Assembly (NCBI GenBank): GCA_009602725.1
Contig: WELB01000030.1
Span: 24,520-67,626, forward strand
Length of the DNA stretch: 43,107 nt
Direction of reading: 5' to 3'
Source: Spirogloea muscicola
Lineage: Eukaryota > Streptophyta > Zygnematophyceae > Spirogloeales > Spirogloeaceae
The stretch's first letter is position 1, and each line of letters begins with the position of its first letter. The notes below the pieces were generated by a model, which ran no database searches, had not been told where the DNA came from, and was given only the letters and a program-made list of their open reading frames with translations. Shown here piece after piece: positions 1 through 42,742 of this stretch. Position numbers and translations under genes: made by a program.

Positions 1-182
1 GGGGACCCACTTCCAGGAGCCCAGCATCTCTGATCTGCGGCTGCTTAGCAGGGGTTACTGAGTGTCTCGTAGCAGCTTTGTTTCTGTTACTTAGCGCTTC
101 CCCTGGCCCCCTTCTCGTATTCTGTTCATTCTTTTTCGGGCTGGTTGTTCCAGCCCCTATTCTCAATGGGCGAGCACTTTCT
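1..182 (+). mobile_element. Family A RLE-type non-LTR element, 3' end, cut by the window edge
   Basis: Bases 2-61 encode the last 19 residues of the family A protein, ending in the signature SISDLRLLSRGY and a TGA stop. A 3' UTR of about 120 bp follows. It contains the stem-loop GGGCTGG-TTGTT-CCAGCCC at 138-156 and ends near 182 in GAGCACTTTCTTCT with no poly(A). The same stop-to-terminus arrangement recurs at 389-552, 15469-15916, 22165-22376, 31080-31285, 36245-36452 and 38300-38745. Only the C-terminal tip of the RT-endonuclease protein lies in the window. Confidence 0.75.
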
Positions 183-248
183 TCTCTACGGGGTATTCTC
201 ATTTCTGGGCTGGCCGATAACGAAGAGGAGATACTCTTCACAGTTGAG

Positions 249-316
249 AGTGACGGCTGCGGTTGGCCAGCCCAGGAAAAAAGAAGAAGTGGCACTCCCA
301 AAAGGGTGAACAAATC
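249..316 (-). mobile_element. Family D 3' tail fragment
   Basis: Read on the minus strand this resembles the last bases of the family D tail, ending in GGGAGTGCCACTTCTTC, and then abuts a further GGGCTGG-containing hairpin half. No coding sequence is attached. It matches the ends of the fuller D copies at 20010 and 29265, so it is probably an extremely 5'-truncated insertion or a rearranged piece. Confidence 0.45.
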
Positions 317-363
317 AATGTCAGCCATCGCCACCTACCTGGAAGAGTCCGTCCTCCTCCTTG

Positions 364-577
364 AGGCGAGGGAGGTGGGTTCCTTGCCCAGCATCTCTGA
401 TCTGCGGCTGCTTAGCAGGGGTTACTGAGTGTCTCGTAGCAGCTTTGTTTCTGTTACTTAGCGCTTCCCCTGGCCCCCTTCTCGTACTCTGTTCATTCAT
501 TTTCGGGCTGGTTGTTCCAGCCCCTATTCTCAATGGGCGAGCACTTTCTTCTTGCGCGGAACCCACCTCCCTCGCCT
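364..577. repeat. 20-bp perfect inverted repeat bracketing a family A copy
   Basis: AGGCGAGGGAGGTGGGTTCC at 364-383 is the exact reverse complement of 558-577. The 174 bp between the arms hold the family A C-terminus and 3' UTR. The inner parts of the arms resemble the sequence just upstream of the conserved C-terminus in other A copies (ACCCACCTCCAGG), so the structure may derive from a fold-back or head-to-head rearrangement of A sequences. Confidence 0.7.
389..552 (+). mobile_element. Family A 3' end, second copy
   Basis: The C-terminal codons for SISDLRLLSRGY and a stop are followed by the family A 3' UTR, with the stem-loop at 505-523 and the terminus GAGCACTTTCTTCT. It is nearly identical to the copy at 1-182. 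A perfect 20-bp inverted repeat (364-383 and 558-577) brackets the copy, which an ordinary LINE insertion would not produce. Confidence 0.7.
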
Positions 578-594
578 AGTTCGTATCTCTCAGG

Positions 595-2673: not shown

Positions 2674-2710
<37 letters not shown>

Positions 2711-9300: not shown

Positions 9301-9678
9301 GCGGCCGGGGAAGGCTGCGGCGCCAATGGCGGCCCTCCGCGTCCCGCAAGGGTGCTAGCGGGCCGCCAAAGGCCGGCCAAGCTGCCGGCACAGCAGGCGC
9401 GGACCTGCACAGGAGCCTTCGCCGGCTGTCAGGCCTGGCGATTGCCACCGGCCCGGCGGAGAGACGCCAGGCCCGCTTAGTCCTGCTTGCCAGCACTGAA
9501 CCTTAGACCATGGCGCTGCCGTTGATTTTAGCCACCGCAGCCGCCGCCAGCGCAGCCGCTTCGCAGTGTGGGATCCGAGCACGAGTCCCCTCTGGTCCAG
9601 TCTCAGCGGCGCACACACCGCTACGGCGACGGCGGCGGCGGCGCGGCGCCCGCCGTGGGGCCAGTGGAGGATGGCCAT
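3349..9678 (-). CDS. MCM: Methylmalonyl-CoA mutase, adenosylcobalamin-dependent, about 17 exons
   Basis: It interconverts (R)-methylmalonyl-CoA and succinyl-CoA, the last step of propionyl-CoA use, normally in mitochondria. Exons (minus): 9678-9502 (tentative), 9404-9207, 8962-8805, 8483-8391, 8230-8046, 7687-7489, 7290-7155, 6865-6818, 6714-6661, 6437-6318, 6025-5942, 5770-5603, 5347-5190, 4710-4528, 4284-4149, 3911-3786, 3594-3349. All joins keep frame and give about 822 aa (human enzyme about 750) that align end to end with the family. Visible motifs: [20 protein letters not shown] (substrate barrel), [11 protein letters not shown] (catalytic His), SLHTNSFDE, and the C-terminal B12 domain with GQDGHDRG, whose lower axial His is the codon at 4166-4164. 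The intron after 8805 has a GC donor (AG|GC). The N-terminus is uncertain: exon 2 has no in-frame ATG, so I place the start at 9678, giving a long basic, Ala-rich leader suited to mitochondrial import. No internal stop was seen. Confidence 0.93.
5502..5595. repeat. 47-bp tandem duplication in a mutase intron
   Basis: The unit beginning GAGAGCGTTG at 5502 is repeated at 5549 with a 47-bp period and only a few differences. It lies inside the intron between exons 5770-5603 and 5347-5190 and stops just before the donor, so splicing should be unaffected. Confidence 0.8.
8391..8804 (-). other. GC-AG intron in the mutase gene, with its downstream exon
   Basis: The exon ends GGCTACAG at 8805 and the intron begins GC (8804-8803). 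The acceptor is CATCCAG, with the next exon starting at 8483. Only this join restores the conserved QYAGYSTAEESN segment, with the Ser codon split AG|C. No GT donor nearby gives the same protein. Confidence 0.8.
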
Positions 9679-9724
9679 GCCCCCCGCCCGTCAAGGAAGG
9701 CCAAACTCTGACGGCGGCGCCACC

Positions 9725-9758
<34 letters not shown>

Positions 9759-9968
9759 AGATGAGAGACCCGAGCCCTGGAGAACTCAACCAAACCCTGA
9801 TTTGTGAAACCCTAAGATCCAAGAGTCGCCGCCGCCGCCGCCGCCGCCATTGCCGCTGCCGCGGCCGCCGNGGCGCGCCCTCCGCCGCCGGCGCCGCGCC
9901 CGGCAGCGCCTTCCGCTGCGCGGCGGAGGCCCGGAGCGGACGGCCAGCGCTGGGGCCTCCAAGCTGGA
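9679..9968. promoter_or_regulatory. Divergent promoter region between the mutase and Der genes
   Basis: Only about 290 bp separate the proposed start of the minus-strand mutase gene from the ATG of the plus-strand Der gene, so both must be driven from here or from overlapping first exons. The spacer is extremely GC-rich and holds two GC trinucleotide tracts (about 9726-9759 and 9826-9849) and an unresolved base at 9871. I see no TATA box. The spacing grows to about 560 bp if the tentative first mutase exon is wrong. Confidence 0.6.
9726..9849. repeat. Two GC-only trinucleotide tracts in the divergent promoter
   Basis: A (GCG)n tract of about 11 units lies at 9726-9759 and a (CCG)n tract of about 8 units at 9826-9849. 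They are opposite in base sense on the plus strand and separated by about 66 bp of ordinary sequence. The unresolved base at 9871 just downstream suggests that the region is hard to sequence. Confidence 0.8.
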
Positions 9969-14994: not shown

Positions 14995-15468
14995 TTCTCT
15001 TTTAGAGAAGGCGATGGCTGTGATAAGCCATAAGCTCAGAACGAAAGGACGGGGACTGGACAATGAGCGAGAGGGGCCGCCCGTTCGCTGCAGAAGGGCG
15101 GCATGGCTGCGGCTGGGAGGGGGATTGGCGGCAACCGCACTCAACCGCTGAAAGGCAAGGCGGCCGAGGTTGGGAAAAAAGAATGCGACTGCTGCAGTTG
15201 AAAGAGCAGCTGTGAAAGCCAGCCAGATGCATACAGGTGTCCTTGACGGAACCACAGGCTAGGCAGACAGGGCGCTCTTAGTACCCTAGGGTCAGCAGTA
15301 GGAAGTCAGATGAACAAAGGGGAGGAAGAGCAACCCCGCTGCGCAAGGCAGAGGCTGCTGCAAGGGCGCGACCGGCGCGGCGGTGCAAAGCAAGCGCTTG
15401 GGAGCGCTGGAGGGACAGAATCGCAAGCGATAGGACACAAGACCCAATGGCAGCGAGCCTCCAGAAAG

Positions 15469-15916
15469 AAGAAAGTGCTCGCCCATTGAGAATAGGGGCT
15501 GGAACAACCAGCCCGAAAAAGAATGAACAGAGTACGAGAAGGGGGCCAGGGGAAGCGCTAAGTAACAGAAACAAAGCTGCTACGAGACACTCAGTAACCC
15601 CTGCTAAGCAGCCGCAGATCAGAGATGCTGGGCTCCTGGAAGTGGGTCCCCTGGCCAGAGCCAGAGGCAGCAGCGAGGGCTCTGCCGGCACGAAGGTGCA
15701 GCGCCCGGGCCATGGACCTCTGCAGCGAGACGGCCAGGCGCATTCGATACACTTGCGCCAGCGACCCGGCTGCAGGGAAGTCAACCGGCTCCCCATGGAA
15801 GCGCCGGGCGATGGTGTGGCGGGCGAGCTGGGTGAGCAGCTCGAGCCACCGAGCGCCCAGCGCCCCATGTGTGTCGATGGCCAACGGGAAGAACTCGTCT
15901 TCCCGCGGATGAGCAA
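15469..15916 (-). mobile_element. Family A copy inserted into the family B element, with 8-bp target duplication
   Basis: A 448-bp 5'-truncated A copy that begins in the endonuclease domain (REDEFFPLAIDTHGALGARW). It runs intact through LQRSMARALHLRAGRALAAAS and SISDLRLLSRGY to its stop, then has the A tail with the stem-loop at 15496-15514. CCAGAAAG occurs at 15461-15468 and 15917-15924, and the B sequence resumes on either side, so this is a target-site duplication of at least 8 bp. Confidence 0.8.
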
Positions 15917-19051: not shown

Positions 19052-19790
19052 CAATGGCAGCTCATATGCTCAGGTGCGCATGGGGCGGGGAGCGGACCGG
19101 AACACACGACCTGCTCCGGAACGCCATTTTGGCATCTTCGTCGAGGCGGGTCACACCGTGGCGCTCGAGTACTCCAGCATCATGCCCCCGACCGCTGGGG
19201 CGGATGGCCGCCTCCACATCCGGCACGCCGATGTCGTTGCCAGCGCGCTTGGCGGGGGCCCTCGGCTCATTGCCAACGTTGTCACGACTGACTGTTTTGA
19301 TTCCAGAGCGCCAAACGCTCGTCGGAGGAGGCGAACTACGCAGTCCGCCAAGCGGTGGGCGCAAAGGAACGGAAATACTCGGATCACCCCGTGGGAGACG
19401 AATTTGTCCCACTCGCCGTTGACGTACACGGAGCCCTTGGCACAAAATGGCTTGACCTGCTTCATCGCCTTGCGCGGCGTGCAGCGGCCAGCCGCCACGG
19501 GCAATGTCGCCGGGTCCCTCGCTCAAGTCTTCCGAATGCGCTTGGCCATCCCTTTGCAGCGGTCCCTTGCCTTCGCGGTTCACTTGCGCAGGCCGTGCTT
19601 TGGTGGCGGCCTCCGGCTTCCGTCAGGGCGACATCTTTCCGCCTGCCAGACTTGCATCTCCTGACTAGAGGTTACTGAGAGTCCCTTTGCTGATGTCTTA
19701 GTCTCTCGCACTCCGGCTCCTTCAGACCTTGTCCATGCTTTTGGGCTGGCCTCTCCCAGCCACCAGTCAATCTGGCCGCGCTTTTTGGCA
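19052..19790 (+). pseudogene. Family G endonuclease-domain fragment with 3' tail
   Basis: It starts inside the zinc knuckle (AAHMLRC) and continues through GTHDLLRN and VALEYSSIMPPTAGADG. The endonuclease core follows: ADVVASALGGGPRLIANVVTTD and, after a frame change near 19330, KERKYSDHPVGDEFVPLAVDVHGALG. It ends DLHLLTRGY with the stop at 19676-19678. A second frameshift lies near 19530. The tail has the stem GGCTGG (19744-19749)/CCAGCC (19756-19761) and the family G terminus CACCAGTCAATCTGGCCGCGC. Other G tails lie near 21255 (-), 28690 (+), 36183 (+), 37870 (+) and 38785 (+). Confidence 0.75.
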
Positions 19791-20009
19791 GGGGCTGGGA
19801 AAAGCCAGCCCGAAAAAGAATTGACAAAGGTTCGAATGGGCCAAATGACGGAGGGGCCTAAAGCGCTGAGCAGCTACATAGGGGCCGAAGATGCTACGTC
19901 AGACGGGGGGGTGGATGGACCACTCAGTAGGTACGAGGGAGGAGCCTCAAAACCGACAGACTAGCTGCCGGAAAAGTATCCCCCTGACGAAAGCCGGAGG
20001 CCGCAGCGA
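19785..20009 (-). mobile_element. Tail-only fragments of D/G type
   Basis: A minus-strand stem-loop (19792-19811, GGGCTGG and CCAGCCC arms) lies only 30 bp from the plus-strand family G stem-loop, giving two facing tails. From about 19880 the minus strand resembles the 3' part of a D element (the region upstream of the tail), and no domain is readable. Confidence 0.5.
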
Positions 20010-20765
20010 AGAAGTGGCACTCCCAATGGGGGCAAGGGCTGCGAAAAGCCAGCCCAAAAAGAGTTCACAAAGGTTCAGAGGGGCCTAAGAGCGGTGAGCA
20101 GCTACAAAGGGGCCTGAGGATGCAATGGTAAAACAGGGGGAGGATGGATCACTCAATAAGTACGAGTGAGGAGCCTCAGATCCGACAGACTAGCTGCCGG
20201 GAAGCATTCGCCCTGACGAAAGCCAGAGCCCGCAGCGAGAGCACGGCCAGCTCGCAGATGCAGAGCGTGGGCCATGGACCGCTGCAGGGATACAGAGAGG
20301 CGCATCCGATATACCTGAGCCCACGAGCCCGCGGCGTTGAAGTCGGCTGGCTCGCCGCGTCTGCGGGACACAGCCCGCCGCGCAAGCCTAGCCAATAGGT
20401 CAAGCCACTGGGACCCAAGAGCCCCGTGCACGTCCACCGCCAAGGGGACGAACTCGTCGGCAGGTGGGTGATCGGAGTGCTTGGCCGCCTTGCAGCGAGC
20501 GGCCTTCGAGGCAGCGTGGCCGGCCCGCGAGGCAGAGAGCCCCAGGTTGGAGCGGTCGACCACATCGGTGGTGACTACATCGGCTATGATCCGCGCGCCA
20601 CCTCCCGGCGTGGACGCCACCAGGTCCACACGACGAGTATGGTGTCCGTCAGCCCTCTCGAGGATGGGCATGACCGAGGCGTTCTCCATCGCTACCGTGT
20701 AGCCCGCCTCCTGAAAGATCCCGAACATAGCATCACGCAAGAGGTCGTGCGCAGCTGTTCGTTCG
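20010..20765 (-). pseudogene. Family D copy with open endonuclease domain
   Basis: On the minus strand the frame is open from the end of the zinc knuckle (RCATGGERTAAHDLLRDAMF) through the RLE core (TRRVDLVASTPGGGARIIADV, then KAAKHSDHPPADEFVPLAVD). It continues to LQRSMAHALHLRAGRALAAG and the stop after LSDLRLLTRTY at 20153. The D tail contains GGGCT/AGCCC arms at 20036-20055 and ends in GGGAGTGCCACTTCTTC near 20010. It is 5' truncated: the reverse transcriptase is missing, so it cannot move on its own. Upstream it is fused to a second D fragment. Confidence 0.8.
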
Positions 20766-21000
20766 CCTCCAGTGGCGCAGCGAGAGCACGGCCAGCACGC
20801 AGATGCAAGGCGTGGGCCATGGACCGCTGAAGGGAGACTGACAAATGCATGCGATACCTTGGGCCCACGAGCCAGCGGCGTTGAAGTCAGCCGGCTCACC
20901 TCGCCTGCGGGACACAGAGACAACGCGCCGCGCAAGCCTGGCCAGCAGGTCGAGCCACTGGAACCCGAGAGCCCCGTGCACGTCCACGGCAACAAAGAAG
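20765..21000 (-). pseudogene. Second family D fragment fused to the D copy at 20010
   Basis: It encodes VDVHGALGFQWLDLLARLARR and GEPADFNAAGSWAQ, then a shifted frame, up to a point homologous to RAGRALAA. There it joins directly to the zinc-knuckle end of the next copy. The junction near 20765 shows a short overlap (CTGCG), suggesting microhomology-mediated deletion between tandem D copies. Together with the copy below it forms part of a 442-codon open frame that is not a real protein. Confidence 0.65.
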
Positions 21001-21016
21001 AAGTGCTCAGAACGAA

Positions 21017-21231
21017 GGCGAGCACGTCACGTAGGACGGCGCTGTAGGGCCGGGGCGGAGCCGGGCCGGGCCGGGAAGGGAAGGGGCTCGACCATTGAGG
21101 ATAGGGGCTGGAAAAGCCAGCCCAAAAAAGAATGGAGGCGAGCACGTCACGTAGGACGGCGCTGTGGGGCCGGGGCGGAGCCGGGCCGGGCCGGGCCGGG
21201 AAGGGGCTCGACCATTGAGGATAGGGGCTGG
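21017..21231. repeat. Tandem duplication with a 120-bp period, rich in GGGCC
   Basis: GGCGAGCACGTCACGTAGG at 21017 recurs at 21137, and ATAGGGGCTGG at 21101 recurs at 21221, both with a period of 120 bp. Each unit has a run of GGGCC/GCCGGG repeats and the beginning of a minus-strand retroelement tail. Only the first unit keeps the complete stem-loop (21105-21123). Confidence 0.85.
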
Positions 21232-21296
21232 GAAAGGGGAAGCGGCTGGGAAAAGAGGAAGCGCGGCCAGATTGACTGGTGGCTGGGAAAGGCCAG

Positions 21297-21347
21297 CCCA
21301 AAAGAATGGACAAAGTCTGAACTTTGAACTTTGTCCATTCTTTTGGG
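21297..21347. repeat. 20-bp perfect inverted repeat at a head-to-head tail junction
   Basis: CCCAAAAGAATGGACAAAGT (21297-21316) is the exact reverse complement of 21328-21347, with an 11-bp spacer. Each arm is the T-rich sequence that precedes the stem-loop in the element tails. The left arm belongs to a minus-strand G-type tail (stem 21281-21298). The right arm has no stem-loop after it and leads into the family E copy. Confidence 0.9.
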
Positions 21348-22012
21348 TTTTTGGACGTGGTCGCTACCCCGCGGGGCGGTGGGCCTCGTCTGCTCTTGGA
21401 CGTGGTACTGATCGACGCATACAAGGCTGGCGCACCAACGTCAACCGTGTCTGACTGGGCCACATCCAGCGCGGAGCGCAAGAAGGAGCGGCACTACCAT
21501 GATCATCCTCGAGGGGACCATCTTTACCCGTGTGCCATGGATATCTATGGAGGCTACGGCGTGAAATGGTCCTCCCTGATCCAGCATCTGGCCCGGCTGG
21601 TTGATGCGCGTCGACGAAGTCGGGGGGGCAGCTTGGGCCACTCCAGCATTCCGCAGGCCTTAGTTGCATATTATAGAATGCGGCTCTCGCTTAGTTTGCA
21701 GCGCTCGCAAGCATTGGCTCTTCATCAACGTGCAGGGCGCGCTCTAAGTCAGGCCTTCGGCTTTTGTGGCGGCGCTCCAGCTCCCCAAGTTAGCTTGTCA
21801 GATTTGTTTGTGCTCACCCGTGGGTACTAATGTCATCTTAGGTACCTTAGATTAGGTCTCCGTATTATGTAGCATTGCTTAGTCTGCACTCGACTCTGCC
21901 TGAACAATGTATTGGCTTGAATTGGCCTCCCTTTCAATTCATGCGCCCCGCGCGCCTTCTCTCTTTGGGTTGGCTTTGCCAGCCCCTCTTCTCAATGGGC
22001 GAGCACCTTCTT
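21340..22012 (+). pseudogene. Family E endonuclease domain with 3' tail
   Basis: It encodes DVVATPRGGGPRLLLDVVLIDAY... with KKERHYHDHPRGDHLYPCAMDIYGGYG and YYRMRLSLSLQRSQALALHQ, ending LSDLFVLTRGY with the stop at 21828-21830. The frame is open throughout, but the reverse transcriptase and zinc knuckle are absent. The tail has GGGTTGG/CCAGCCC arms at 21967-21985 and ends CAATGGGCGAGCACCTTCTTCT near 22016. That terminus is shared with family A, although the coding parts differ clearly. Confidence 0.75.
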
Positions 22013-22014
22013 CT

Positions 22015-22150: not shown

Positions 22151-22164
22151 AGCCAGCCCAAAAA

Positions 22165-22376
22165 AGAAGAAGGGCTCGCCCATTGAGAATATGGGCTGGA
22201 ACAGCCAGCCCAAAAAAGAATGAACAGAGTACAAGAAGAGGGGGGGGGGAAGCCAGGCGAAGCCCTAAGGCGAAGCAGCAGAAATGACAAGCACACAAGA
22301 AAAAACAAAGCAGCTACTAACCACTCAGTAACCCCTGCTAAGCAGGCGCAGGTCGGAGAGGCTATGCTCCAAAAAA
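22165..22376 (-). mobile_element. Family A copy, 3' end
   Basis: The minus strand encodes SLSDLRLLSRGY and a stop, followed by the A tail with stem-loop arms at 22193-22199 and 22205-22211 and the terminus GGGCGAGCCCTTCTTC near 22165. Confidence 0.65.
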
Positions 22377-22439: not shown

Positions 22440-23725
22440 TCCGCCTCCGGGCGAATGGGCGGCCTGGGCTGCCGGTCACTTGAATAGACGGGGCAGGCAG
22501 CCTTCGTCGGTTGCTGGCACCAGGTTGCCTCCCTCCTCCCCTTGCGCTTGCCTTGTCTGGCGGGCCCTGCAGCCGAGGTGGAGGAAAGGCTCCTTCGCAT
22601 TCCAAGTGCAATTGAGGAGCATCCGGGAGTCAGCAATCTGCTCCTGCCCCTCCCTGCAAACCCTCCTCACCCCCTTCTCAGCGCTGGCCCAAGCACCGGA
22701 CAAAGCGGCACACGCCAGACTCGTTGCTGCAGTTGAGAACGAGCGTCGCAAGTCGCTGAGGACGATGCCAGATAGCAGGACCAATCAAGTAGTCTGGCAC
22801 GTCTCACATCGCTCGCAACAACTGGGGCAACACACTGGCTCACAACGCACGCCATTCACAACGCATTCAGAATCAGCCCCGAGGCATTCCGGACGCTTCT
22901 CCCGCTGTTCCTCGGCCTACCCACGACCTGCCTGATTGGAGTAACTCAGTGTGAGTGCGGCTTCCGTGCGGAGGGCTGAGACCTTGCCACCCACATGCTG
23001 CGGTGTATTACAGGCCCTGAGGTGGTGGGCGTCCACAACCTCCTACAGGACGCCCTGGCGGGCCTGATGCGCAACGCCGGCTACCGCGCCACTGTGGAAG
23101 TAAACAATGTATTGCCCATTACCACGGCTTCTCAGGGACGCCATCACCGTCGCACCCTGGACATTGTGGGTGTACAACCTGGCGGTGGCCCACGCGCCTT
23201 GGTGGATGTGGTGGTGACGGAGGCATACAAGTGTTCCGCTTCGATGCACACTGCTGGCCACGCAGTGGGAGGTGCTGAGCAGCGACAGCTCCGAAACTAC
23301 TCTGACTACCCCCGCAGCCATCACCTCCTATCGGCGGCAATCGACACATTCGGCTGCATGGGCCCTCGCTTCCACACCTTACTGCAGAATATTGCAAGCT
23401 TGGCTTACGCTCGACGTGGGGATATGCTTCCATCTCAGATGAGCATGCCGGCAGCCTACTTGTCATTCTTGCGTCGTCGAGTGTCAGCTTGTCTGCAGCG
23501 AGCTCAGGCTCATGCATCAGAAAGCTGGTCGAGCCTTAGCTGGTAGCTCAAGAGCTTGTCAATTGCCGTCCGGTATTCGGGCGTCAGTTCGCGACCTCTA
23601 TGTGCTGACTCGTGGTTACTGAGCGGGTCAGCTTAGCAGCAGGTGACGTACTTTTGTCAATGTGCTTGCCTTTGGACGTGACCATACATGGCCCTCCATC
23701 TCTAAACACACACGCATTTCTGGCG
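22440..23725 (+). pseudogene. Family F element: thumb, zinc knuckle, endonuclease and 3' tail
   Basis: It begins in the C-terminal part of the reverse transcriptase. The zinc knuckle CECGFRAEG-stop-DLATHMLRC follows, with an in-frame TGA near 22978. An open endonuclease frame runs on (VHNLLQDALAG; TLDIVGVQPGGGPRALVDVVVTEAYK; LRNYSDYPRSHHLLSAAIDTFGCMG; LRRRVSACLQRAQAHA). A frameshift near 23515 precedes the true C-terminus RDLYVLTRGY and its stop at about 23619-23621. The stop lies in the loop of a stem (CTGACTCG at 23605-23612, CGGGTCAG at 23624-23631). The copy is 5' truncated and dead. Its upstream edge GAATGGGCGGCCTGGGCTGCC also occurs near 27880 (-). Confidence 0.8.
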
Positions 23726-23829
23726 GGCCGGGGCGACGCACACCAGTGGATAGAGTAGAAGCCAGTTCTATGAGCTTCCCCTCTGCTTTTGTCCATTCCT
23801 TTTTCCCGGGCTGATCGATCACAGCCACC

Positions 23830-25200
23830 GCCCTCCACTGGAAGTGTACCTCTCCTCTTGTTCACTCCTCTGGCATTCGACAGTGTGAATGTGGCCATCG
23901 CTCGGAGGACGAGATCTCGCTGGCAGCTCACACGCTTCGATATTGTGAGGGATGTGAACGTAATGCCTACCACAATCTGAGAGACATTATGTGTGGCTTA
24001 GTGCGAGAGGCAGCTTACCATGCGGCCATGGAGGTGCCGGGCATCATGCCAAAATTCTCGTGTATTTGAAACAAAAAAAGGCCAAATGGCCAAGTACAAT
24101 GGCAAGCACAGCTAGATAAGTACATCAACCATAGCAGATTGACCCGCTCAGTAACCACGGGTCAATACATAAAGGTTGTTAATTGATGCCTGAAAGCTGG
24201 TACTCACAGAAGCGCGGCAGACCTTACATCAGGCGTCTAGATGTGGTTGCCAATCCCCCGAGCGGTGGGCCTCGTCTCCTCCTCGACGTCGTTTTGACCA
24301 AAAGGTTGGTGACAACGTGGATATGCGTTTCCCCGCCAAGGTGGTTGACCCCGCACCGATGAGCTTCATGGTCCTGTGATTTCTGAGGAGCCTGGCATAT
24401 GGTAAGTCCTCGTCACGGCGCAACTTGTGGATCACGTGCTCGTCCGCAATAGTCTTACTTGGTGCTTGGTCCCCATGGGTAGTGCGCATAGCAGATTGCA
24501 TGTAAGTGAGCCAGTTACTAGTGCTCCATACTTGCAAGTTTTCATGTTGAATACATCCAATTGAGGTGTCCTGCAACAGCTCAGACTGTTCACACCAACA
24601 GAGCATGACCAGGTGCTTGCATGCCACATTAGAAGCCAATGAGGTAATAACCCCAAACATATGACGTATCCTGCGAGTCCGTCGACTCTGCGAACCCCAC
24701 AAAATCGAAGTCGCAGCAGGGCACGCGGTCGGCACGGCGGCCCGTGGCACGGAGCGCAAGTATGCCGATCATCCTGCTGAAGATGAGTCGCGGCACTCGC
24801 GATTGACGTGCACGGGGCATTCGGCAGTTGCTGGCTGGACCTTCTGCAGCGGCGTGCCCGGCAGGCCATCGATCGTCGTCCGGGTCAGCAAGGAAAGCTG
24901 CCCGGCTTCACGCTGCCGGGTCGTCTGCCCAGGTATCCGAATGCGGCTGTCTGTCTCCTTCCAACGCTCCCTGGCTCACGCAGTGCACTTGCTGGCAGGC
25001 CGCGCTATGGCTGCAGCTTGTGGGTCTCGTCGGGGTGCCTCTTCCAGCTGCGACTTACTCCGAGTTGCTGCTGCAAACTCGTGGTTGTAATGCTCCCATC
25101 TGCTGTAGTCTCGTGCATCGCTGTTTGCGGACGCCTTTCGGCTATTCGGACCTTGTCCGTCCATTTTGGGCTGGCCTTTCCCAGCCCCTGCCTTCTTCAG
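23830..25200 (+). pseudogene. Family E-like element, interrupted twice
   Basis: The zinc knuckle is intact (CECGHRSEDEISLAAHTLRYC, about 23885), and the reading continues AYHNLRDIMCGLVREAAYHAAMEV. It stops near 24060 at an inserted minus-strand tail and resumes near 24215 with RRLDVVANPPSGGPRLLLDVV. It stops again near 24310 and resumes near 24740 (KYADHPAEDE; DVHGAFGSCWLDLL; RMRLSVSFQRSLAHAVHLLAGRA) with frameshifts. The tail stem-loop is at 25168-25187. The 24310-24735 insert is not recognised. Confidence 0.65.
24062..24205 (-). mobile_element. Family F-like tail inserted in the E-like element
   Basis: The minus strand reads LYVLTRGY and a stop. The stem TTGACCCG/CGGGTCAA (24139-24146 and 24158-24165 on plus) surrounds the stop, then a GGCCATTTGGCC palindrome follows, with the terminus TTTGTTTCAAATACACGAGA. 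It is the twin of the copy at 14870-14994. Confidence 0.7.
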
Positions 25201-25779
25201 AAGAGCTACTTCTCTAACCTGCAACGACTATGAAAATACTGCAAAGCACAGTCCTTGCATCTATATGCATATATACCTGGAAGTGATGTACACGTCTAGC
25301 ATGCATCTGGCTTAAAATGTTGGGCACGTAGTCGCTCTGACAATGGTCTCGCGGCCAGGAAGCGTTTCTTGGATTCTTCTTCAGATAAGGTCTCTCAACG
25401 CAATAATGGCTCACAGGACACTTCCAATTGAGACTGGGAGGCTGTCTATTAGTGGATACTCAAGCACGTCAAGAGCCAGGGTGACCTGGTCGAATTTATA
25501 ATCTGGGGTGAGTTGATGGTGGCCCCTTGTTGCTTGCCCTTCTATGACTGCCCACATCTTCCTAACAAACTTTTTGAGATAAATTTGTACAGTGAGTAAA
25601 ATCGAAAGAAGCAGCTGACATTGTCACAGTCAGGTGCTTTATTTATAAGCTACTCTCCAGCTGCTTCAGAATGAGCCTCCACAGCACTGGCTTAACTGGC
25701 AGCTAGCCTTTTTCTCAATATTTATGGGACTATGCTCAGATTTGCTGCCTACATACAACGTCGCGACAAGGTTATGCAC
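25201..25779. other. Spacer without a recognised gene
   Basis: AT-richer sequence downstream of the minus-strand TBL-like pseudogene. It may contain that gene's former 3' flank. I see no retroelement tail or open frame of note. Confidence 0.35.
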
Positions 25780-28560: not shown

Positions 28561-29264
28561 ACGAATCTCCGAGGTGAGGAAGGGAAAGGGAAGGGATGCC
28601 TGCCAGGAGGGGAGGGGGGGTAAGGCGCCAGGAGGATGAAGGTGAGGGGAAGGATGGGTGTTGTAGCAGGGAGCCAGGGTTTGCAGGTTCCCAGCCACCA
28701 GTCAATCTGGCCGCGCTTGCTTTTGCAGGAGGGAGGTGCCTTGTATAGCTCGCCCACCATGTCCGTTGGGGCGTATGTCCGCTGCAGGTAGCCAGCCGTT
28801 GGCTGATGCAGCGAGTGAAGATTGTGAACGCCAACTGCCAATCTCCATGGAGAGGGAGGAAAGGGGGGCCATTTTGTTGCTGCAGTCGTTCACTCAGATT
28901 CTCCACTTAATAATGTGCCGGGGGACTACTGGAGGTGTTCGGAAAAAAGTAAGCTCATCCGAATGGGCGGGAGAAGTGGCTCTGCCGAAAGGGGTAAGGG
29001 CTGTGAAAAGCCAGCCCGAAAAATTCTGACCAGGTCCTAGGTCCCAGGCGGCGAGTGAGTCCGCCACCGGCCACAAGAAAGACTCCCCAGAAAGGAACAT
29101 CCCTTCTTCAAAGGTCAGCCCAAAAAAGTGGACAAGGTCCAAGACGAGAAACTCCGCCGGGGCCGGAAACGAAGGCGAGGATCTCTCAAAACGGCCGATG
29201 TTCTGGGAAAAGGCCAGCCTATCAAGAGTCCGTTGTCACCACGTCCAAGATAAGGTGCTTCCCG
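28561..29264. mobile_element. Cluster of tail-only retroelement fragments
   Basis: The region contains a G-type terminus near 28690 (CACCAGTCAATCTGGCCGCGC) and a D-type stem GGGCT/AGCCC at 28998-29017 (-). Partial T-rich stem halves lie near 29113 and 29205 (-). No protein domain is readable. It looks like several very short insertions on top of one another. Confidence 0.5.
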
Positions 29265-30650
29265 CTAGCAGAAGTGGCACCCAATGGGGGCAAGGGGCTG
29301 CGAAAAGCCAGCCCAGAAAGAATTGCGAGAGGTTCGGAGGGGCCTACAAGCGTTTAGCAGCTACAAAGGGGCCTGATGGTGCTATGTCAGAACAGGGGGA
29401 GGATGGATCACTCACTTACGAGTGAGGAGCCTCAGATCCGACAGACTAGCTGCCGGAAGACTATCCCACTGACGAAAGCCGGAGGCCGCAGCGAGAGCAC
29501 GGCCAGCACGCAGATGCAGAGCGTGAGCCATGGACCGCTGAAGGGATACTGACAATTTCACACGATGCACTTGAGCCCACGAGCCAGCGGCGTTGAAGTC
29601 AGCCGGCTCACCGCGCCTGCGGGACACAGCGCGCCGCGCAAGCCTGGCCAGCAGGTCGAGCCACCGGGACCCGAGAGCCCCGTGCACGTCCACGGCCAGG
29701 GGAACGAACGCATCTGCAGCCGGGTGGTCGGCGTGTTTGGCCGCCTTGCTGCGAGCGGCCTTCGCCGCAGCATGGCCAGCCCGCGAGGCAGAGAGCCCCG
29801 GGTTGGAGCCGTCGACCACATCAGTGGTGATCACGTCAGCGATGATGCGCGCGCCGCCGCCCGGCGTGGACGCCACCAAGTCGACACGGCGCGTGGGGAG
29901 TCCGTCGGCCCTCGGGAGGATTGGCATGACGGAAGAGTTCTTCATCGCCACCGTGAGCCGGCCTCCTGAAAGATGCCAAACATCGCATCGCGCAAGAGAT
30001 CGTGAGCCGCTGTACGTTCGCCTCCAGTGGCGCAGCGGAGGAGATGTGCCGCCAGCTCCGCCGGGTCCGTCGACAGAACCCCACATCCACACTGCAGCAC
30101 GCCCAGCAGGCAGGGCGGGGGGAGGCCCATCTGACGGTGGGTGGCCGTACGGAACAGCTCATCCGGCATCCTACGGGCGTCGTAAAGGGGGAGCGCGGAG
30201 AGCCAGGCTGCCGCGCCGGGGGAGGAGGCCGACAGCAGCCGAGCATGGCCGCGCACGTCGGTTGCAGGGAGGAGCTGCAGCGTGGCCGTGAAGGACGCCT
30301 TGTCGACTGCCGCCATGTAGCGCGCCTGCGCTTACGAGTCGGTGGTGTGGGCGAGGTAGGCAAACGGGACCACGCTCTCTGCAAGGGCAGGGTGCTCCGC
30401 AAGTAACCCGTCCTGAGCTGAGCGGAGCGCCACCTGAAAAGGCAACGAGCCGGTCGCCATCTCCACCACAACCTGCTGCAACAGGGGCCGCCCATCATGG
30501 AGGAAGCGCTGCGCCATCGACGTGGCGACCTGGGCCCAGCTGCCAAGGAACGCTGGCCTGCAGACGCGCGCGAGCGAGCGGCAGCCGAGGCCACTCTGGC
30601 CAGGGGGCAGAGTGGCCTGGCCAACCAGTGGAGTGGCCACAAAAGGTCGA
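29265..30650 (-). pseudogene. Family D element, best-preserved copy, 5' truncated
   Basis: Reading on the minus strand: thumb region (GQSGLGCRSLARVCRPAFLG, MAQRFLHDGRPLLQQVVVEM), then a connector broken by one TAA (30331-30329) where related copies read LRAQARFM. The zinc knuckle CGCGVLSTDPAELAAHLLRC and GGERTAAHDLLRDAMFGIFQ follow. A 1-base deletion near 29957 precedes TRRVDLVASTPGGGARIIAD, KAAKHADHPAADAFVPLAVD and ASLSDLRLLT. The D tail stem is at about 29295-29314. Only two clear lesions in about 1.2 kb make it the youngest-looking long copy. No YADD-bearing palm is present. Confidence 0.8.
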
Positions 30651-31079: not shown

Positions 31080-31285
31080 TCTGGCCAGGGGACCCACCTC
31101 CAGGAGCCTAGCATCTCTGACCTGCGACTGCTTAGCAGGGAATACTGGGTGATTCGTAGCTGCTTTGTTTCTTTTTGAGCTCGTCTTTCTTAGTGCTTCC
31201 CCTGGCCCCCTTCTTGTACTCCGTTCATTCTTTTTTGGGCTGGCTGTTCCAGACCCAATCCTCAATGGGCGAGCCCTTTCTTCTG
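31080..31285 (+). mobile_element. Family A copy, 3' end, stop codon lost
   Basis: It encodes HLQEPSISDLRLLSREYW: the usual TGA after the final Tyr is TGG here. The tail follows with an imperfect stem (GGGCTGG at 31237-31243, CCAGACCC) and the terminus GGGCGAGCCCTTTCTTCT. Confidence 0.7.
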
Positions 31286-34770: not shown

Positions 34771-34858
34771 TAGCACAGGTTAGCTGGGTGGAAGCCCACT
34801 TCAACATTAATTACAGGTTCTCATTGCTCGGAGGTCCTTAAGCCACTCGAGGGAAGGC

Positions 34859-36182: not shown

Positions 36183-36452
36183 TCAGACCTTGTTCATTGC
36201 CTTTGGGCTGGCCTCTCACAGCCATTGCTTCTCTTGGAAGTGCTTATTTGCTCTGGCTCTGGCCAGGGGACCCACTTCCAGGAGCCTAGCACCTCTGATC
36301 TGCGGCTGCTTAGCAGGGGTTACTGAGTGTTTTGTTGCTGCTTTGTTTCTTTTTGTGCTTGTCTTTCTTAGCGCTTCCCCTGGCCCCCTCCTCGTACTCT
36401 GTTATTCATTTTTGGGCTGGCTTTTCCAGCCCCTATCCTCAATGGGCGAGCA
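36183..36452 (+). mobile_element. Family G tail followed by a family A 3' end
   Basis: At 36183-36235 there is a G-type tail (CAGACCTTGTTCATTGCC, GGGCTGGCCTCTCACAGCC). The A C-terminus follows immediately (THFQEPSTSDLRLLSRGY, stop at 36324-36326), and its tail has the perfect stem-loop 36414-36432, ending CAATGGGCGAGCACTTTCTC near 36452. From 35736 to 36182 nothing is recognised. Confidence 0.65.
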
Positions 36453-36599
36453 CTTTCTCTATTCTCTTTTCTTTTTCGTCGTCCTTACGGAGAGGGGCCA
36501 TCGGCCCCTTGGACGAGATTCTTCTTTAGTGGAGAGGGGCGAACGCTCAGCCGAGGACACCGACTGGGGAGGACAATGACGGGCCAGCCGAAATGAGAA

Positions 36600-37325
36600 G
36601 CGGCCCTTTCTAAAGGGGGCGAGGCCTGTGAAGTGCCAGCGCACAAATGACAGAAAGATGGGAAGAAAGTGGCTCTCCCAAACCCAAGGACCCAAGAATA
36701 AGCAGCTATTCAAAGGATGAAAAGGAAGACTCTTCCAGTAGAGGGCGATGACTGAGATTGACCAGCCCAGAAAAGCAATGAGCAAACTTCGTAAGGGCCA
36801 GAAAAGCGTCAATGCACACAGCGTCTCAAGTGGCCTTTGGGTGCTCAATAACCTCAATTGAGCACCCTCAGGTCAGGGAAACTAGTCTCCGGGTAGCGGG
36901 TCTCCTGGCCAGAGCCAGAGGGTGCAGCCAAACCGCGACCGGCACACAGATGCAACGCGCGTGCCATGGACCGCTGCAGCGAGACTGACAGGCGCATAGG
37001 ATACACCTGGGCGAGAAAGACTGCCATGTTGAAGTCAGCTGCTCCCCGTGGTAACGTCGGGACACAGCGCTGCGCGAGAGCCGGTGCAGGAGCTCCAGCT
37101 ACCGAGCGCCGAACGCCTCGTGACCATCGATGGCTACGGGGAAGAAGTCGTCCTTCCCCGGATGGTCAGCAATTTCGGATCCTTGGTCCGGGCGTCACTG
37201 CCAGCGCATGCCCTGCTTTGGAGGCAGAAGAAGTGGCACTCCCAACTCCTTTTTTCAATGGGGGCAAGGGCTGCGAAAAGCCAGCCCAAAAAGAATTCAC
37301 AAAGGTTCAGAGGGGCCTAAGAGCG
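36600..37325 (-). mobile_element. Fragmentary minus-strand elements, including a C-terminal endonuclease piece and a D tail
   Basis: Around 36860-37180 the minus strand encodes DHPGKDDFFPVAIDGHEAFG, LELLHRLSRSVVSRRYHGEQ and a broken C-terminus, closest to family A. At about 37245-37325 there is a complete D tail (stem 37268-37287). Between 36600 and 36860 only stem halves are seen. All are non-functional. Confidence 0.55.
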
Positions 37326-37329
37326 GAGT

Positions 37330-37869: not shown

Positions 37870-38299
37870 CAGACCTTGTCCATCCTTTGGGCTGGCCTCT
37901 CAGAGAGATTGGCGCGCCGGGATGCGGCCATTCCGCCGCAGCGGTCGGAGGCATGATGCTGGTATTCTCGAGCGCCACCGTGTAAACGGCCTCGACAAAG
38001 ATGCCAAACATCGCATTCCGCAGCAGGTCGTGTGTTCCTGTCCGCTCCCGCCCAGTGCGCACCTGAGCATGTGAGCTGCCAGTGATGCCGCATCTGAACT
38101 GCGCTCTCCGCACTCACACTGCTGCACTCCACTGAGGCAGGGTGGGTGGAGGCCGAGGAGGCGGTGCACCGCCGTATGGAAAGCGTCATCGGGCATTCGG
38201 AGCGCGTCGTGGATCGGCAGGGCAGACAACCAAGCTGCCGCCCCTGGTGAGGATGCCGAGAGCAACCGCGCCCGCCCCCGGAGGTCGGCCGATGGCAAG
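37870..38299 (-). pseudogene. Family G zinc-knuckle fragment with an opposite-facing tail
   Basis: The minus strand has RGRARLLSASSPGAAAWLSA, an intact zinc knuckle CECGERSSDAASLAAHMLRC, then after a frameshift GTHDLLRNAMFGIFVEAVYT and ENTSIMPPTAA. At 37875-37912 a plus-strand G-type T-rich tail and GGGCTGG stem half faces the other way. Confidence 0.6.
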
Positions 38300-38745
38300 A
38301 AAAAGCTCGCCCATAGAAGAGAGGGGCTGGCAGAAGCCAGCCAAAAAAGAATGGACAAAATCCAAAGAGCTACAGGAGAATCACTCAGTAACCTCTGCTA
38401 AGCAGCCGCAGGTCGGAGATGCTAGGCTCGTTGAGAAGCGGCGGTTGAAGTGGGTCCCCTGGCCAGAGCCAGAGGCAGCAGCGAGGGCTCTGCCGGCACG
38501 AAGGTGCAACGCCCGGGCCATAGACCTCTGCAGCGAGACGGCCAGGCGCATTCGATACACTTGCGCCAGCGACCCGACTGCAGGAAAGTCGACCGGCTCC
38601 CCATGGAAGCGACGGGCGATGGTGTGGCAAGAGCCCCATCGCCGTGGTGAAGGAGGCCGCATCTAGCTCTGCCATGAAGCGAGCTTGTGCCCGGAGGTCG
38701 GCCGTGCGCGCGAGGTGCGCGAACAGGACGGCCCGTGGCACCAGG
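38300..38745 (-). pseudogene. Family A copy with internal deletion
   Basis: The minus strand reads FAHLARTADLRAQARFMAEL ... TTAMGLLPH and then jumps to HTIARRFHGEPVDFPAVGSL and YRMRLAVSLQRSMARALHLR, so the zinc knuckle and endonuclease core are deleted. The C-terminus SLASPTC/LLSRGY is frameshifted. The stem GGCTGG/CCAGCC lies at 38325-38342, and the terminus at about 38305. Confidence 0.65.
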
Positions 38746-38757: not shown

Positions 38758-38781
38758 AGTGCCTCGTGGGCACGAGGCACT
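38758..38781. repeat. Perfect palindromic hairpin overlapping the end of an element
   Basis: AGTGCCTCGTG (38758-38768) pairs with CACGAGGCACT (38771-38781) across a 2-base loop. It follows GGTTACTGA, the usual end of an element protein, and precedes a G-type tail (GGGCTGGCCTCTCACAGCC). Confidence 0.85.
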
Positions 38782-39229
38782 TTCTATTCGGGCTGGCCTC
38801 TCACAGCCACCAGTCAATCTGGCCGCGCTTTTCTCTTTCCATTCGGAGCGCATTTCTTGCGAAGGGCGCCAGGGCGCCGGGGGGCGGCCGCCGGCGGCCG
38901 GCGCGGGCCACGGGCGGCTGGCGCAGCGGGGGCGCAAGCCGCGGCCGGCGCCTCCCCTCCACCTCCTCTCCTCCGCCGGGGGCACCTTGTCGATTACGAT
39001 CAAGCTGGCCCCTTTTGGGAGAGCCAGTTCTGTCCGCCGGGGATACCTGGGCCGCCGACGCCGGGGCCGGCCCCACCCCACCGGTGCGCTGAGGACAACG
39101 GGGAGGCGCCCCACCGGGCTCACTCCCGCCGCCTTTCCAGCCGGCTACAGCCATTCCACGCGCCGGCCGCCCCTAGCCCGCCCCGAGCACTGCACCCCGG
39201 CCTGGCTGCTGGACCCTACCGTGCCCGCC

Positions 39230-41879
39230 ATGGCGGCGCCCGCGCCCAGCGCCTCCGCCCGGCGGCTCGCCTTCGCCCTCCTGGCCTTCGCGCTCTCCTG
39301 GGCCTCCTGCGACATCTCTGGCGGCCCGCCGTCGAGCTCGCGGCTTCGGTGGCCGCCGTGCCGGTTGCGTCCTCGCGTGGCGGCCGTGGCGGCCGTGGCG
39401 GCCGTGGCGCGCTGCCTGCCGCCCCGCAGCCTCGGCGGACTTATTCCGAGGGTCGGCATCCGCCGCCGCTCCTGCGCCCTGCGCGGCTTGTTCTTGCCTC
39501 CCTCGGACGCGCCGCCAGCATCGCCGCAGCCCGCCTTCTGGCACCTGCGGGCCTCCCAGCGAGTGCCGTGGCCGTAAGACCTTCCCGTCGTCGAAGAATC
39601 ATCACTTCTGTTGGGCAGCGGCAGTGGAAACGGCGGGGGCGATTCGCTGAAGCAAATGAAGGAGGCAGTGGTGGCGCGTCGAGGAGCTACCAGTGGGTGA
39701 ATGTGACCATTACTGACGGAGCAAGCCCTGCAACTTTGGGAACTTTGAGCAAAACCTTGCCTCCGCCACCAAGGCCAGGTACCGCCGCGACATGAGCGCC
39801 GGCCTCCCTGCCTGATCTGGGGCCACCTCAATCACCTGTTTGACGCGCACTTTTGTCCTGCCTCGCACAGCTCCACCGCCCATTGACGAATCTCTGCTGA
39901 ACTGCGACTGGCGTGACAGCTGCTAAGACGTAAGAAGGTTGTGTTCGTCGGGGACTCACTCACTGGCCAGCTCGTGGGAAACTTCATATTGTCACCGCAG
40001 AAGAATGGCTACAAGGACGTGGTCGACTGCGGCACAACAGTCTGGGCTCCTTCGATTTGAACTGCGGGCAGCCTGGCTTGCATGGATGCTTCGAGCAACT
40101 TCGAACCCCTAGCTTGGCGCCTGATATCTGCAGCCGTGAGGCTACACCTTGGCACCACTGCGAGCAGGGTCAAGGAGCACCGCTGAGCACCTCCTAGAGA
40201 AAAAGCCTGAGCCCAGCTGTCTCTCTGCTACCAAGGTGTGGCGGCGCGTAAGGCCTGCGAGTGGACTGACTTTACCTCATTGTTCCTAGAGTGAAGCTGG
40301 TTCTACGACGTGAAACCAGATGACACCATGGAGCAGATGCTGGCCAAGGCCTCCAATGTGCAGGACCCCGACAAGAAGCCCTCCTCACTCAGGGAGGAGA
40401 CAGTGCTCGGCTGGCCTTTTGAGAATGCCACCTGGACCTGCTGGCGAGGTATTGCACCTTTCATGTCTCTTTCCTGCATAATGCAGGCACTGAAGCCAGA
40501 CTTCCACTACATCTGGCTCTCTGAGCTGCTTCTGACCACTAGCGGCAAGGAAACTGCTCTGCTGTTGCGAAGCTAGCATGTGCTGCCAAGGGAAGGCAAT
40601 GCATCGACTGCTGAGTGCCCAATTGTGTGTGCAGCTTGCAGAGTTTCTTCACCTGCAGCATGGGCAACAGTCTTAATCTGCCACAAACAGTCTCTGTCTT
40701 ACTCTGTCTTTACTGAGCCCTTATCTGCACACCATTGTCAGCATCAAGCTTGAGGTACTTATCACTTCACCAACTTGACCTCCTGCAGCCTTCCATATGC
40801 TTCCCAGCATTTATAAGTGGCCTGGCATAAATACATTTCCAGCCCAGCTCGAGTACATTGCCCAGAAGTTTGATATGGTGAATACTGGGGATGAGCTTAG
40901 GCAACTTGCTGCTGTCTCGACCTGCAAGTATGTGCTTAAACCAATTTGTGGGAGTGGCAACGGGGTTGAGCTTCTGCAACTTGACACTGACGACCTTTAT
41001 ACATAAGCTGTTGTAGAGGCACTCCAAGACAAAGTACAGAACACTAACCCTTCAATTCAAGCATGTATTTGACGGCCACAGTAGCTTCTATCTTGCTGCA
41101 GGGCATCTTCAATATTGGATTGCACTACCATAATTGGCAGGTAAAGGGCCTCCGTTATAATATGCACATATCAGCTAAGTACATACGCGTTACAGCACAG
41201 AGAAGAACCGCGTGGGGCTTTTCTGGGGGACTTTGCCGCAACACTTTTTCAGCCTCAGTAGCAATGGCATCTTCCCTTTCCATACAAGTTGGCAGAGAAT
41301 GCCACCAAGGCAGACCTTGTAATCTGCCACCCTGCACCTCGAGTGCATCAGGTAAGCTTTGCTCCCTCTCGCCCTGCTGGTGTGGGGCTACTTCCGCCAC
41401 GCAAATACATGACATAGAAGCAACGCTGCAAAGAGAAGCCAGAATCCAGCAATTGTGTGATGGAGTTGCTGACATGCACGCTGTTCCATGATGGCAGCAG
41501 CATCATTTCATGTTGACCCGATGAGTCACTTTTTGTTTGGTCTCTGAGCAGTGGCGAAATGATGTCATGTAGGAGGTGGCGATCGAGAAGCAGGTGCCAG
41601 TGCAGCAGATCTTCCATCAGATGGACATGCACGGCTTTCACGGGACAAATCCTAAGACTACTGTACGCACTGGGCCAACCTGGACATAACGTGGCTGCCT
41701 GCACTCGATACCACATATACCACGACAGCGGCAGGAATGTGCCGGTGGCAGATGCTGGCCAAGAACGACTGTGACAACCACTTCCCTGCCGTCCATCACA
41801 GCACAGTGCGGCACCGAGAGCCAGACCTTGATGGTGCTGTGCATTTGTCTAGCTGGGACCGGCCGCGACAAGAGGAATA
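39230..41879 (+). pseudogene. TBL/PMR5-like PC-esterase, copy 2, broken
   Basis: It has the same layout as copy 1: ATG at 39230, a hydrophobic N-terminus (RRLAFALLAFALSWASC), a GDSL exon (KKVVFVGDSLTGQLVGNF; Ser codon 39956-39958), a middle segment (WFYDVKPDDTMEQMLAKASN, WPFENATWTCWRGIAPFM open at 40310-40576), then the two 3' exons. Lesions relative to copy 1: a 1-base deletion near AGTACATACGCG (about 41180), TAG at 41570-41572 where copy 1 has TGG, a 4-base deletion near 41657 that removes the Asp of the DxxH motif, a TGA at 40058-40060, and a 1-base shift near 39445. The intron donor after 41351 is GT where copy 1 has GC. It is almost certainly a pseudogene. Confidence 0.8.
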
Positions 41880-42510
41880 GCACAGGTCTGGGTGAAAATC
41901 CACCTCAACATTGACCACAGGTTCGCATTGCTTGCAGGTCCTTACGCCACTCGATGGAAAGCTGTAATAAGGACTATCACTGCCTCCTTTTTCAGCAAGT
42001 GGGAATCCAGAGCACGTAGCTACTCCAGTGAGCATGCCTGGTGATGCTCACCTATAAAGACAGCTAGTGACGGCCTTATCATCTTGTGCAACTTGCCTTG
42101 ACCAACTAGCTCAAGCAACATACAAATTCCCAGGCGAATGTACAGTTGTAAAGTAATCTCAGCAGTTCGTGCTGCAAGCAAGCAGTTCATGCTGCATACA
42201 AGTTGACCGCAGTTCAGTAATATTGCTCCGCTTCTCAGCCAAGGGGATAAAGAGGTTACGAAGTTAGAGGTTGACATTTTTCCTGGGGGCTCTTTCGAGA
42301 TTAGATTAATGTGGAGATATCGTAGTCCGTTCTGCAAGGCTGACCGGGGACATACGCTTTCTTTCTTTTTTGGCCACACATGGCCTCCCCATCTCTTAAT
42401 ACACGTCTTTTTCCTTCCTTCCTTTCTCTTCTTACGTTTTTCTTATTTAACTTTCTCCAGGTGTCCTACTTGTCAATAACACAGTCCCTTGATAACACCC
42501 ACGATTGACT

Positions 42511-42742
42511 ATTGTTCCATGCAAAGTGCCGCTTCTCCTGCTCCGAGTTACTCTGATCTGCTGTTGCTCACACGTGGATACTGAGCAGCCATCTGCATCT
42601 CCCTCTGCACCGTCTTGCACATTGTAGTGTAGTCCTTTTTCAGCACCTCTTTCTTTGGCTTTGAATATTGTCCATTCTTTTTGGGTTGGCTTTGCCAGCC
42701 CCTCTTCTCAATGGGCGAGCACCTTCCTTCATTGTTCCATGC
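42511..42742 (+). mobile_element. Family E 3' end with 12-bp target-site duplication
   Basis: ATTGTTCCATGC occurs at 42511-42522 and again at 42731-42742. The 208 bp between encode the C-terminus SYSDLLLLTRGY and a stop, followed by a tail with GGGTTGG (42683-42689)/CCAGCCC (42695-42701) and the terminus CAATGGGCGAGCACCTTCCTTC. The matching place in segmental copy 1 (about 35340-35360) has a single related sequence and no element. No poly(A) or other 3' repeat is present. Confidence 0.9.

Follow-up and report, generated by a model that had tools for sequence, protein, structure and literature searches.

A conserved 3' hairpin in one branch of restriction-like endonuclease LINEs of the alga Spirogloea muscicola, with one case of tail exchange

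The stretch of Spirogloea muscicola DNA analysed here, termed the window, comprises 43,107 bases (contig WELB01000030.1, assembly GCA_009602725.1) within a 153.1 Mb genome of 471 contigs. Genes for chlorophyll a/b proteins mark this genome as that of a phototroph of the green lineage. It contains many short stem-loops, which are the 3' tails of long interspersed nuclear elements (LINEs) that carry a single long open reading frame (ORF) encoding a restriction-like endonuclease (RLE). All 15 stems claimed by an initial annotation of this DNA were located at their positions, and the tails run in the direction it had described: a T-rich motif, the hairpin, about 20-30 nucleotides (nt) and a pyrimidine tract. 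The window contains 11 perfect stems of the form GGCTGG-N3..8-CCAGCC where 0.11 would be expected, and none of 100 shuffles reaches this number. A covariance model trained on 19 window tails matches the window 31 times at E<=1 and 27 times at E<=0.01; as the model is bound to recover its 19 training tails, 8 of the 27 are additional. At least 15,088 of the 43,107 window bases match a library of element loci. The family letters used below (A, D, E, F, F2, G, H, J and HJ) are defined here, independently of those of the initial annotation, and lineage I denotes the branch comprising families A, D, H and J. The stem-loops constitute a real 3' module, well conserved and for the most part inherited, of this single branch of RLE LINEs, and one exchange of tails is demonstrated.

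The reverse transcriptase (RT) family PF00078 was found above its cut-off in all six element ORFs scanned (L007, L008, L009, L010, L174 and L175). Stop-to-stop open frames extend over 1,267-1,521 amino acids (aa) in F, E, F2, G and H and over 833 aa (partial) in D, all with RT. Neither these five long frames nor the partial D frame gave a Pfam match to an apurinic/apyrimidinic endonuclease (APE) at E<=1, a range in which the HMMER filters remove most matches with E greater than about 0.1. AlphaFold2 (AF2) was used to model the C-terminal 263 aa of family F from an alignment of 17 genome copies. Comparison of the model with solved structures returned seven R2 entries at Z 12.8-15.0, the next row standing at 7.5, and Foldseek returned six R2 chains at E 1.8e-6 to 9.2e-4. 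The RT together with this predicted R2-like endonuclease fold in the C-terminal domain bears out the assignment of the elements to RLE-type LINEs. A candidate zinc finger near the N-terminus (zf-C2HC_2) scored E 4e-4 in F, which is below cut-off, and similar Cys/His motifs are seen by eye in E, G and H.

The layout resembles that of R2-type RLE LINEs: one long ORF, RT, a Cys-His motif preceding the endonuclease, and the endonuclease itself at the C-terminus, with R2 proteins as its closest solved structures. This likeness is one of layout and endonuclease fold. RLE LINEs are sorted into CRE, R2, R4, NeSL and HERO in the excerpted account of PMC4640811. Their CCHC knuckle is given as CX2-3CX7-8HX4C in the part of PMC5678591 available to us, unlike the spacing C-x1-C-x11/12-H-x3-C observed in F, E and D (C-terminal regions of L007, L008 and L009). 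RT regions are 49-65% identical among F, E, G, D and H, and 82% between F and F2. A degenerate 18-base pattern for the C-terminus [LV]TRGY plus stop has 6,531 matches in the genome versus 12 for the reversed control. Two F copies, L007 and L011, are 99.9% identical across 3,984 bp, which suggests recent activity; by eye, the 5' flank of L007 resembles an H tail end and that of L011 a D tail end. Six near-identical loci with long open frames (L001-L006), which were among the best RVT_1 matches, are like long terminal repeat (LTR) retrotransposons and by reading resemble Ty3/gypsy elements.

Copies were sampled from two sources: 80 of the 82 C-terminus matches listed for contig C1, taken from the top of the list, and 80 copies chosen from protein searches (50 with the H query, 10 with D, 9 with E, 7 with F and 4 with G). 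As these searches scored 150 of 8,464-21,510 first-look candidates, the copy numbers are minimum values. A complete tail by the criterion used was found in 124 of the 160 copies, some of these tails belonging to a neighbouring element; the remaining 36 copies are truncated, masked or unclassified.

The GGGCTGG..CCAGCCC hairpin is present in families A, D, H and J, and family G carries the related GGCTGG..ACAGCC. In the four lineage-I families, a T-rich motif (TTGTCCATTCTTTTT) and the near-invariant GGGCTGG-loop-CCAGCCC hairpin lie in the last 60-70 nt. Families E and F have other ends. The 3' end of E reads ...TTGGCTTGAATTGGCCTCCC...GCGCGCCTTCTCTC, followed by DNA that differs between copies, and that of F reads ...TTGGCCACACATGGCCTCCC...ACACGCATT. 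No GGGCTGG stem stands ahead of the 3' end in any of 27 E-type copies (L033 being excluded as its E tail is that of a neighbour), and a stem lies within 40 nt beyond the 3' end in 2 of the 27. The E copy of the window is 99% identical to E copy L017 through 21965, and the stem starts at 21967. Because the E homology stops at about 21965 and E copies elsewhere end without the stem, sequence comparison assigns the stem to a J tail, of lineage I, that received the E insertion. The F copy ending near 23728 similarly precedes, and by our reading does not own, the stem at 23809.

The initial annotation had placed the stem behind the stop codon of copies from differing families. This is so for A, D, H and J, and in a related form for G, but not for E and F; the stems themselves are real and occur above chance, although they do not follow the stop codon of every family. 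That the hairpin is common to families with clearly different proteins stands, since the RT regions of D and H are 65% identical and the coding DNA of H-type copies and of two J copies 66-72%. The broader claim of a module common to all families falls, with E and F ending otherwise, and is partly a product of nested insertion, which gave that impression in the window. A hairpin common to all lineages (GGCY..RGCC, also in E, F and G) was considered as well and set aside: the MAFFT alignment was ambiguous and gave only a suggestion of it, and the E, F and G tails fold no better than shuffled sequences (z -1.1 to +0.6).

Comparison of seven families or subfamilies (21 pairs) reveals 95% identity in the hairpin arms, 82% in the 16 nt upstream, 64% in the loop, 62% in the part downstream of the hairpin and 54% in the preceding 60 nt of the untranslated region (UTR). 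On this alignment the arms show the highest conservation, as would be expected if they served in recognition. Among 51 distinct GGGCTGG tails, pairs 2-6 of the stem are formed in 48, 50, 51, 51 and 51, respectively; the counts are lower for pair 7 (38) and pair 1 (19). A single H copy carries T-A at pair 1 in place of the G-A of most H copies, a one-sided change within H. An outer stem between the T-rich motif and a downstream GGGCGAG, possible in A and J, was rejected as a common feature: own-class pairing had a mean of -5.02 versus -5.04 for permuted tails, and 52% of permutations were as good (14 tail classes, 97 distinct tails).

The first seven bases past the tail are 76-93% pyrimidine versus 46-60% at bases 9-20. 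The CT-rich tract was at first read as the target site, a reading that was abandoned when the sibling empty sites proved mostly to be without it. In 23 nested insertions with a sibling empty site, the tract is 85% pyrimidine versus 48% in the sibling, and higher in 20 of the 23. As the tract is mostly absent from the sibling empty site, at least part of it was added with the insertion; it is partly insertion-derived and perhaps a terminal repeat from slippage. The 83 of 118 flanks with matches include, besides these 23, 37 whose match starts within the first 4 bases (the tract being in the sibling, or the loci overlapping) and 23 whose match starts beyond base 14, neither group deciding the matter.

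Homology to elements was found in 77 of 117 3' flanks versus 27 of 91 control 60-mers, a few of the former coming from overlapping sample loci, and this excess indicates that nesting is frequent. Together with the position of the window E copy within the T-run of a J tail, it would agree with the conserved tail being kept as an insertion target for sibling elements rather than as a tag for the RT. We consider this very unlikely. The 73 of 118 flanks that could be placed have insertion points scattered over the coding and UTR parts of sibling loci and partly beyond the element, with no single site standing out, and second stems within 70 nt past the tail show no excess over controls (7 of 124 versus 9 of 227). 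The insertions lie in differing sequences, often sibling copies, an apparent difference from R2-type LINEs.

Many copies consist of little more than a tail and are without coding sequence. In Chlamydomonas, 3' tails are common to RandI LINEs and short SINEX partners according to the sections of PMC3747384 at hand, and parasites resembling short interspersed nuclear elements (SINEs), with a body and promoter of their own, could account for the tail-only copies here. To address this, 17 of the 25 tail matches listed on contig C3 were taken, those skipped lying within about 6 kb of another or being the last two; only a limited portion of the genome is covered in this way. Upstream of the tail motif, sequence homologous to element loci extends for 39-424 nt, with a median of 120; the individual values are lower bounds, in that the library includes nested and truncated copies. 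The end points are scattered with no common boundary, and no SINE-like body with a common 5' end was seen in the 17 sampled tails. SINE-like parasites are accordingly very unlikely. Extreme 5' truncation, which the initial annotation had also offered, fits the scattered ends, and judged by these sampled sequences the tail-only copies would mostly be such truncations.

On the coding tree, families D, A, J and H are separated from E, which served as outgroup. By inspection, tail class tracks protein class except in HJ and in visible nested insertions (e.g., L033, L041, L048, L082, L123, L131 and L158). In three HJ copies, L111, L115 and L136, the coding end is of H type and the next 31-32 nt of UTR resemble H; some 13 nt of unassigned sequence separate this part from a J-like stretch of UTR and tail of about 98 nt, and the flanks beyond the tail differ. 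Over its last 300 nt, the HJ coding DNA is 0.78-0.91 identical to that of eight H copies; against two J copies, which may include some non-element codons at their upstream ends, the figure is 0.66-0.72. The first 31-32 nt of the UTR are 0.88-0.94 identical to H1, and the distal UTR is 0.80-0.91 identical to nine J copies versus 0.65-0.79 to H. A 35-mer across the junction occurs 110 times in the genome at <=3 mismatches, the reversed control 0 times, and at zero mismatch it is found in at least 33 places among the matches listed. It lies 26-54 nt behind an H-type coding match in five cases; because the comparison drew on 38 of the 150 H matches and 24 junction places selected by eye, these cases illustrate the arrangement without giving its frequency. 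These sequences indicate that at least one H/J chimera has been amplified to dozens of copies. The exchange of tails that the initial annotation envisaged is thereby seen in one clear case, an H-type protein with a J-type tail in three copies with different flanks, and tails otherwise mostly follow proteins. A further candidate, F2 copy L010, was not accepted as a tail acquisition: a second F2 copy, L164, has a different flank, and the case is taken as a neighbouring insertion. A literature search on chimeric or swapped LINE tails returned nothing on topic by title, which does not establish absence from print.

The likely origin of HJ is the insertion of a short J copy in the 3'UTR of an H element, the J tail becoming the new end of the RNA; the direction of the exchange is likewise an inference. 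The reverse direction, in which the J-like tail of HJ is the older state and the remaining H subfamilies gained theirs (ACCAGTCAATCTGG...) later, draws on the T-rich motif of H, which still complements the J-type downstream part, and on GGGCGAG, which is common to A, J and HJ. We regard it as distinctly improbable: between HJ and J the distal UTR identity exceeds that of the coding DNA, which points to a later transfer. A wider proposal holds that tail exchange is common, the hairpin being a public tag through which one enzyme mobilises several RNAs in trans. It accords with the amplification of HJ, with the better pairing of the T-rich motif of H with the downstream part of J than with that of H itself, and with the constant stem and family-specific loop, by which a stem-reading enzyme could accept several tails. 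Apart from HJ and nested insertions, however, inspection of the sample shows tail class matching protein class, E and F tails differ, no discrete non-autonomous family was seen in the 17 tails, and in zebrafish L2 each ORF2 strictly recognises its own tail, as stated in the portion of PMC4176376 consulted. Common exchange is for these reasons unlikely; trans-mobilisation by one enzyme is possible, and the data do not require it.

The presence of the hairpin, its conservation and restriction to one branch, the short copies with differing 5' ends, the nested insertions and the one chimera are direct observations. Their best explanation, which we consider probable, is that the stems mark where copies from a single abundant group of RLE LINEs end on the 3' side and that the lineage-I hairpin is an RT recognition tag kept mainly by descent. 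The hairpin would probably serve as the 3' recognition tag for the element's own RT, by analogy with stringent-type LINEs. Binding of the RNA would lead to target-primed reverse transcription, 5' truncation during this step would produce the short copies, and nested insertion followed by read-through may have given rise to HJ. The interpretation of the initial annotation thus survives as regards RLE LINEs, a shared hairpin, one exchange and 5' truncation, but not as regards a module of all families.

Several observations weigh against this explanation. The AF2 model of the F C-terminus is only of moderate quality (mean pLDDT 67). The last 72 nt fold clearly better than shuffled sequences only in A, J and HJ (z -2.2 to -3.6), and the folding z is weak in D (-1.45) and H (-0.2 to -1.2). 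The subfamily with TTGTTGAT deviates from the T-rich motif (L087, L110 and L163). Covariation, whose absence the initial annotation had named as an outcome that would refute its view, is not seen: there is no two-sided change at pairs 2-7 in the 51 distinct tails, which vary on one side only, and in the window alignment (19 rows) 0 of the 6 pairs of stem 1 changed on both sides. The arms are too invariant for this lack of compensatory change to be informative either way; pairing appears conserved among the aligned tails, and covariation neither proves nor disproves it. The pyrimidine tract is partly added and partly present in the host sequence, and the exact 3' end is therefore uncertain. With regard to the chimera, H-side bases make up only 8 of the 35 positions of the junction pattern, and several 3-mismatch matches differ there. 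Approximately unbiased (AU) tests of the coding tree did not discriminate between the two groupings (p 0.095 for HJ+J and 0.143 for HJ+H), so the claim rests on the identities, the shared junction and the copy number.

Conserved 3' tails and the sharing of tails are already known for LINEs and SINEs. The excerpts of PMC4176376 report that stringent LINEs bind a 3' hairpin and propose for zebrafish L2 (ZfL2) a bipartite recognition in which the stem is contacted in a general and the loop in a specific manner. The tails described here are like those of the stringent type (ZfL2-1, ZfL2-2 and UnaL2, the last of which is assigned to the L2 clade in PMC3747384, seen in part) in having a 3' hairpin near the RNA end with a constant stem and a family-specific loop. 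The ZfL2 tail-binding region is located between the endonuclease and RT domains (same portion of PMC4176376), whereas the endonuclease here is a C-terminal RLE and tail recognition is putative. The elements share with Dualen and RandI a green-lineage host and an RLE. Dualen encodes APE plus RLE in the excerpt of PMC4640811, unlike the present elements, in which a scan of six frames found no APE family; for RandI, the sections seen of PMC3747384 give 3' repeats of the (ATT)n or (CTATTT)n type, and a CT-rich tract is found here. A literature search for RLE non-LTR elements in Chlorophyta or algae returned none by title and start of abstract, which again does not establish absence from print.

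A constant stem with family loops would suit a scheme such as that of ZfL2, and HJ, with a J loop and an H protein, is its natural test. Lineage-I LINEs might, as a tentative and rather doubtful extension, read the common stem and tolerate different loops, making tails exchangeable, so that an H enzyme moves J-tailed RNA or a J enzyme H RNA; nested insertion would then keep making new combinations of enzyme and tail, HJ being a successful one. With its thousands of RLE-type copies, a constant stem, family loops and an amplified family bearing the tail of a cousin, this genome offers a natural experiment on the choice of RNA by a LINE enzyme, and the case also illustrates how nested insertion can mimic a shared module. 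The features of the window are collected in Table 1.

Table 1. LINE tails and coding regions in the window (positions counted from its first base).
Feature	Position	Strand	Stem or remark
Lineage-I tail, family A, behind 5'-truncated A copy	122..185	+	stem 138-156
Lineage-I tail, family A	489..552	+	stem 505-523
Lineage-I tail, family A, behind C-terminus SISDLRLLSRGY and stop	15467..15530	-	stem 15496-15514
H-type tail behind frame-shifted H copy	19727..19786	+	stem 19744-19761
D-like tail, shortened, head to head with preceding tail	19775..19827	-	stem 19792-19811
Family D tail	20007..20071	-	stem 20036-20055
RLE C-terminal coding region, family D	20156..20770	-	205 aa, ends in LLTRTY
A-like tail	21076..21139	-	stem 21105-21123
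Tail-only copy, H-type	21251..21315	-	stem 21281-21298
RLE C-terminal coding region and stop codon, family E	21351..21830	+	
Own 3'UTR and 3' end of family E (...GCGCGCCTTCTCTC), without GGGCTGG stem	21831..21966	+	exact end 21963-21966, ambiguous (T run)
Family J tail remnant, apparent target of E insertion	21967..22014	+	stem 21967-21985
A-like tail	22164..22227	-	stem 22193-22211
RLE coding fragment, family F	23094..23543	+	library homology stops at 23728, before stem at 23809
Lineage-I-like tail, divergent	23792..23856	+	stem 23809-23826
Lineage-I-like tail, divergent	25152..25216	+	stem 25168-25187
Tail-only copy, D-like	28969..29033	-	stem 28998-29017
Family D tail behind longer D copy (homology about 1.3 kb upstream)	29267..29330	-	stem 29295-29314
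A-like tail	31221..31284	+	covariance model match
Lineage-I-like tail, divergent; A-like copy starts at ~36251	36189..36253	+	stem 36206-36223
A-like tail	36398..36461	+	stem 36414-36432
Family D tail, insertion behind stem	37226..37303	-	stem 37268-37287
Lineage-I tail	38297..38359	-	stem 38325-38342
Tail-only copy, H-like	38774..38838	+	stem 38791-38808
Family J tail behind C-terminus SYSDLLLLTRGY and stop	42667..42730	+	stem 42683-42701

At 21297-21345 of the window, a minus-strand tail directly abuts an inverted copy of TTTGTCCATTCTTTT, which results in a small palindrome. A full-length 5.8S rRNA match (126 bits) was found at 26798-26952 on the minus strand; no other Rfam match at gathering scores occurs in the window, hence no adjoining SSU or LSU, and this is an isolated rDNA fragment. 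The ORFs tried from a further repeat had no Pfam match; it is a direct duplicate of about 2.5 kb at 32258-34780 and 39451-41887, the listed pieces of which are 82-93% identical.

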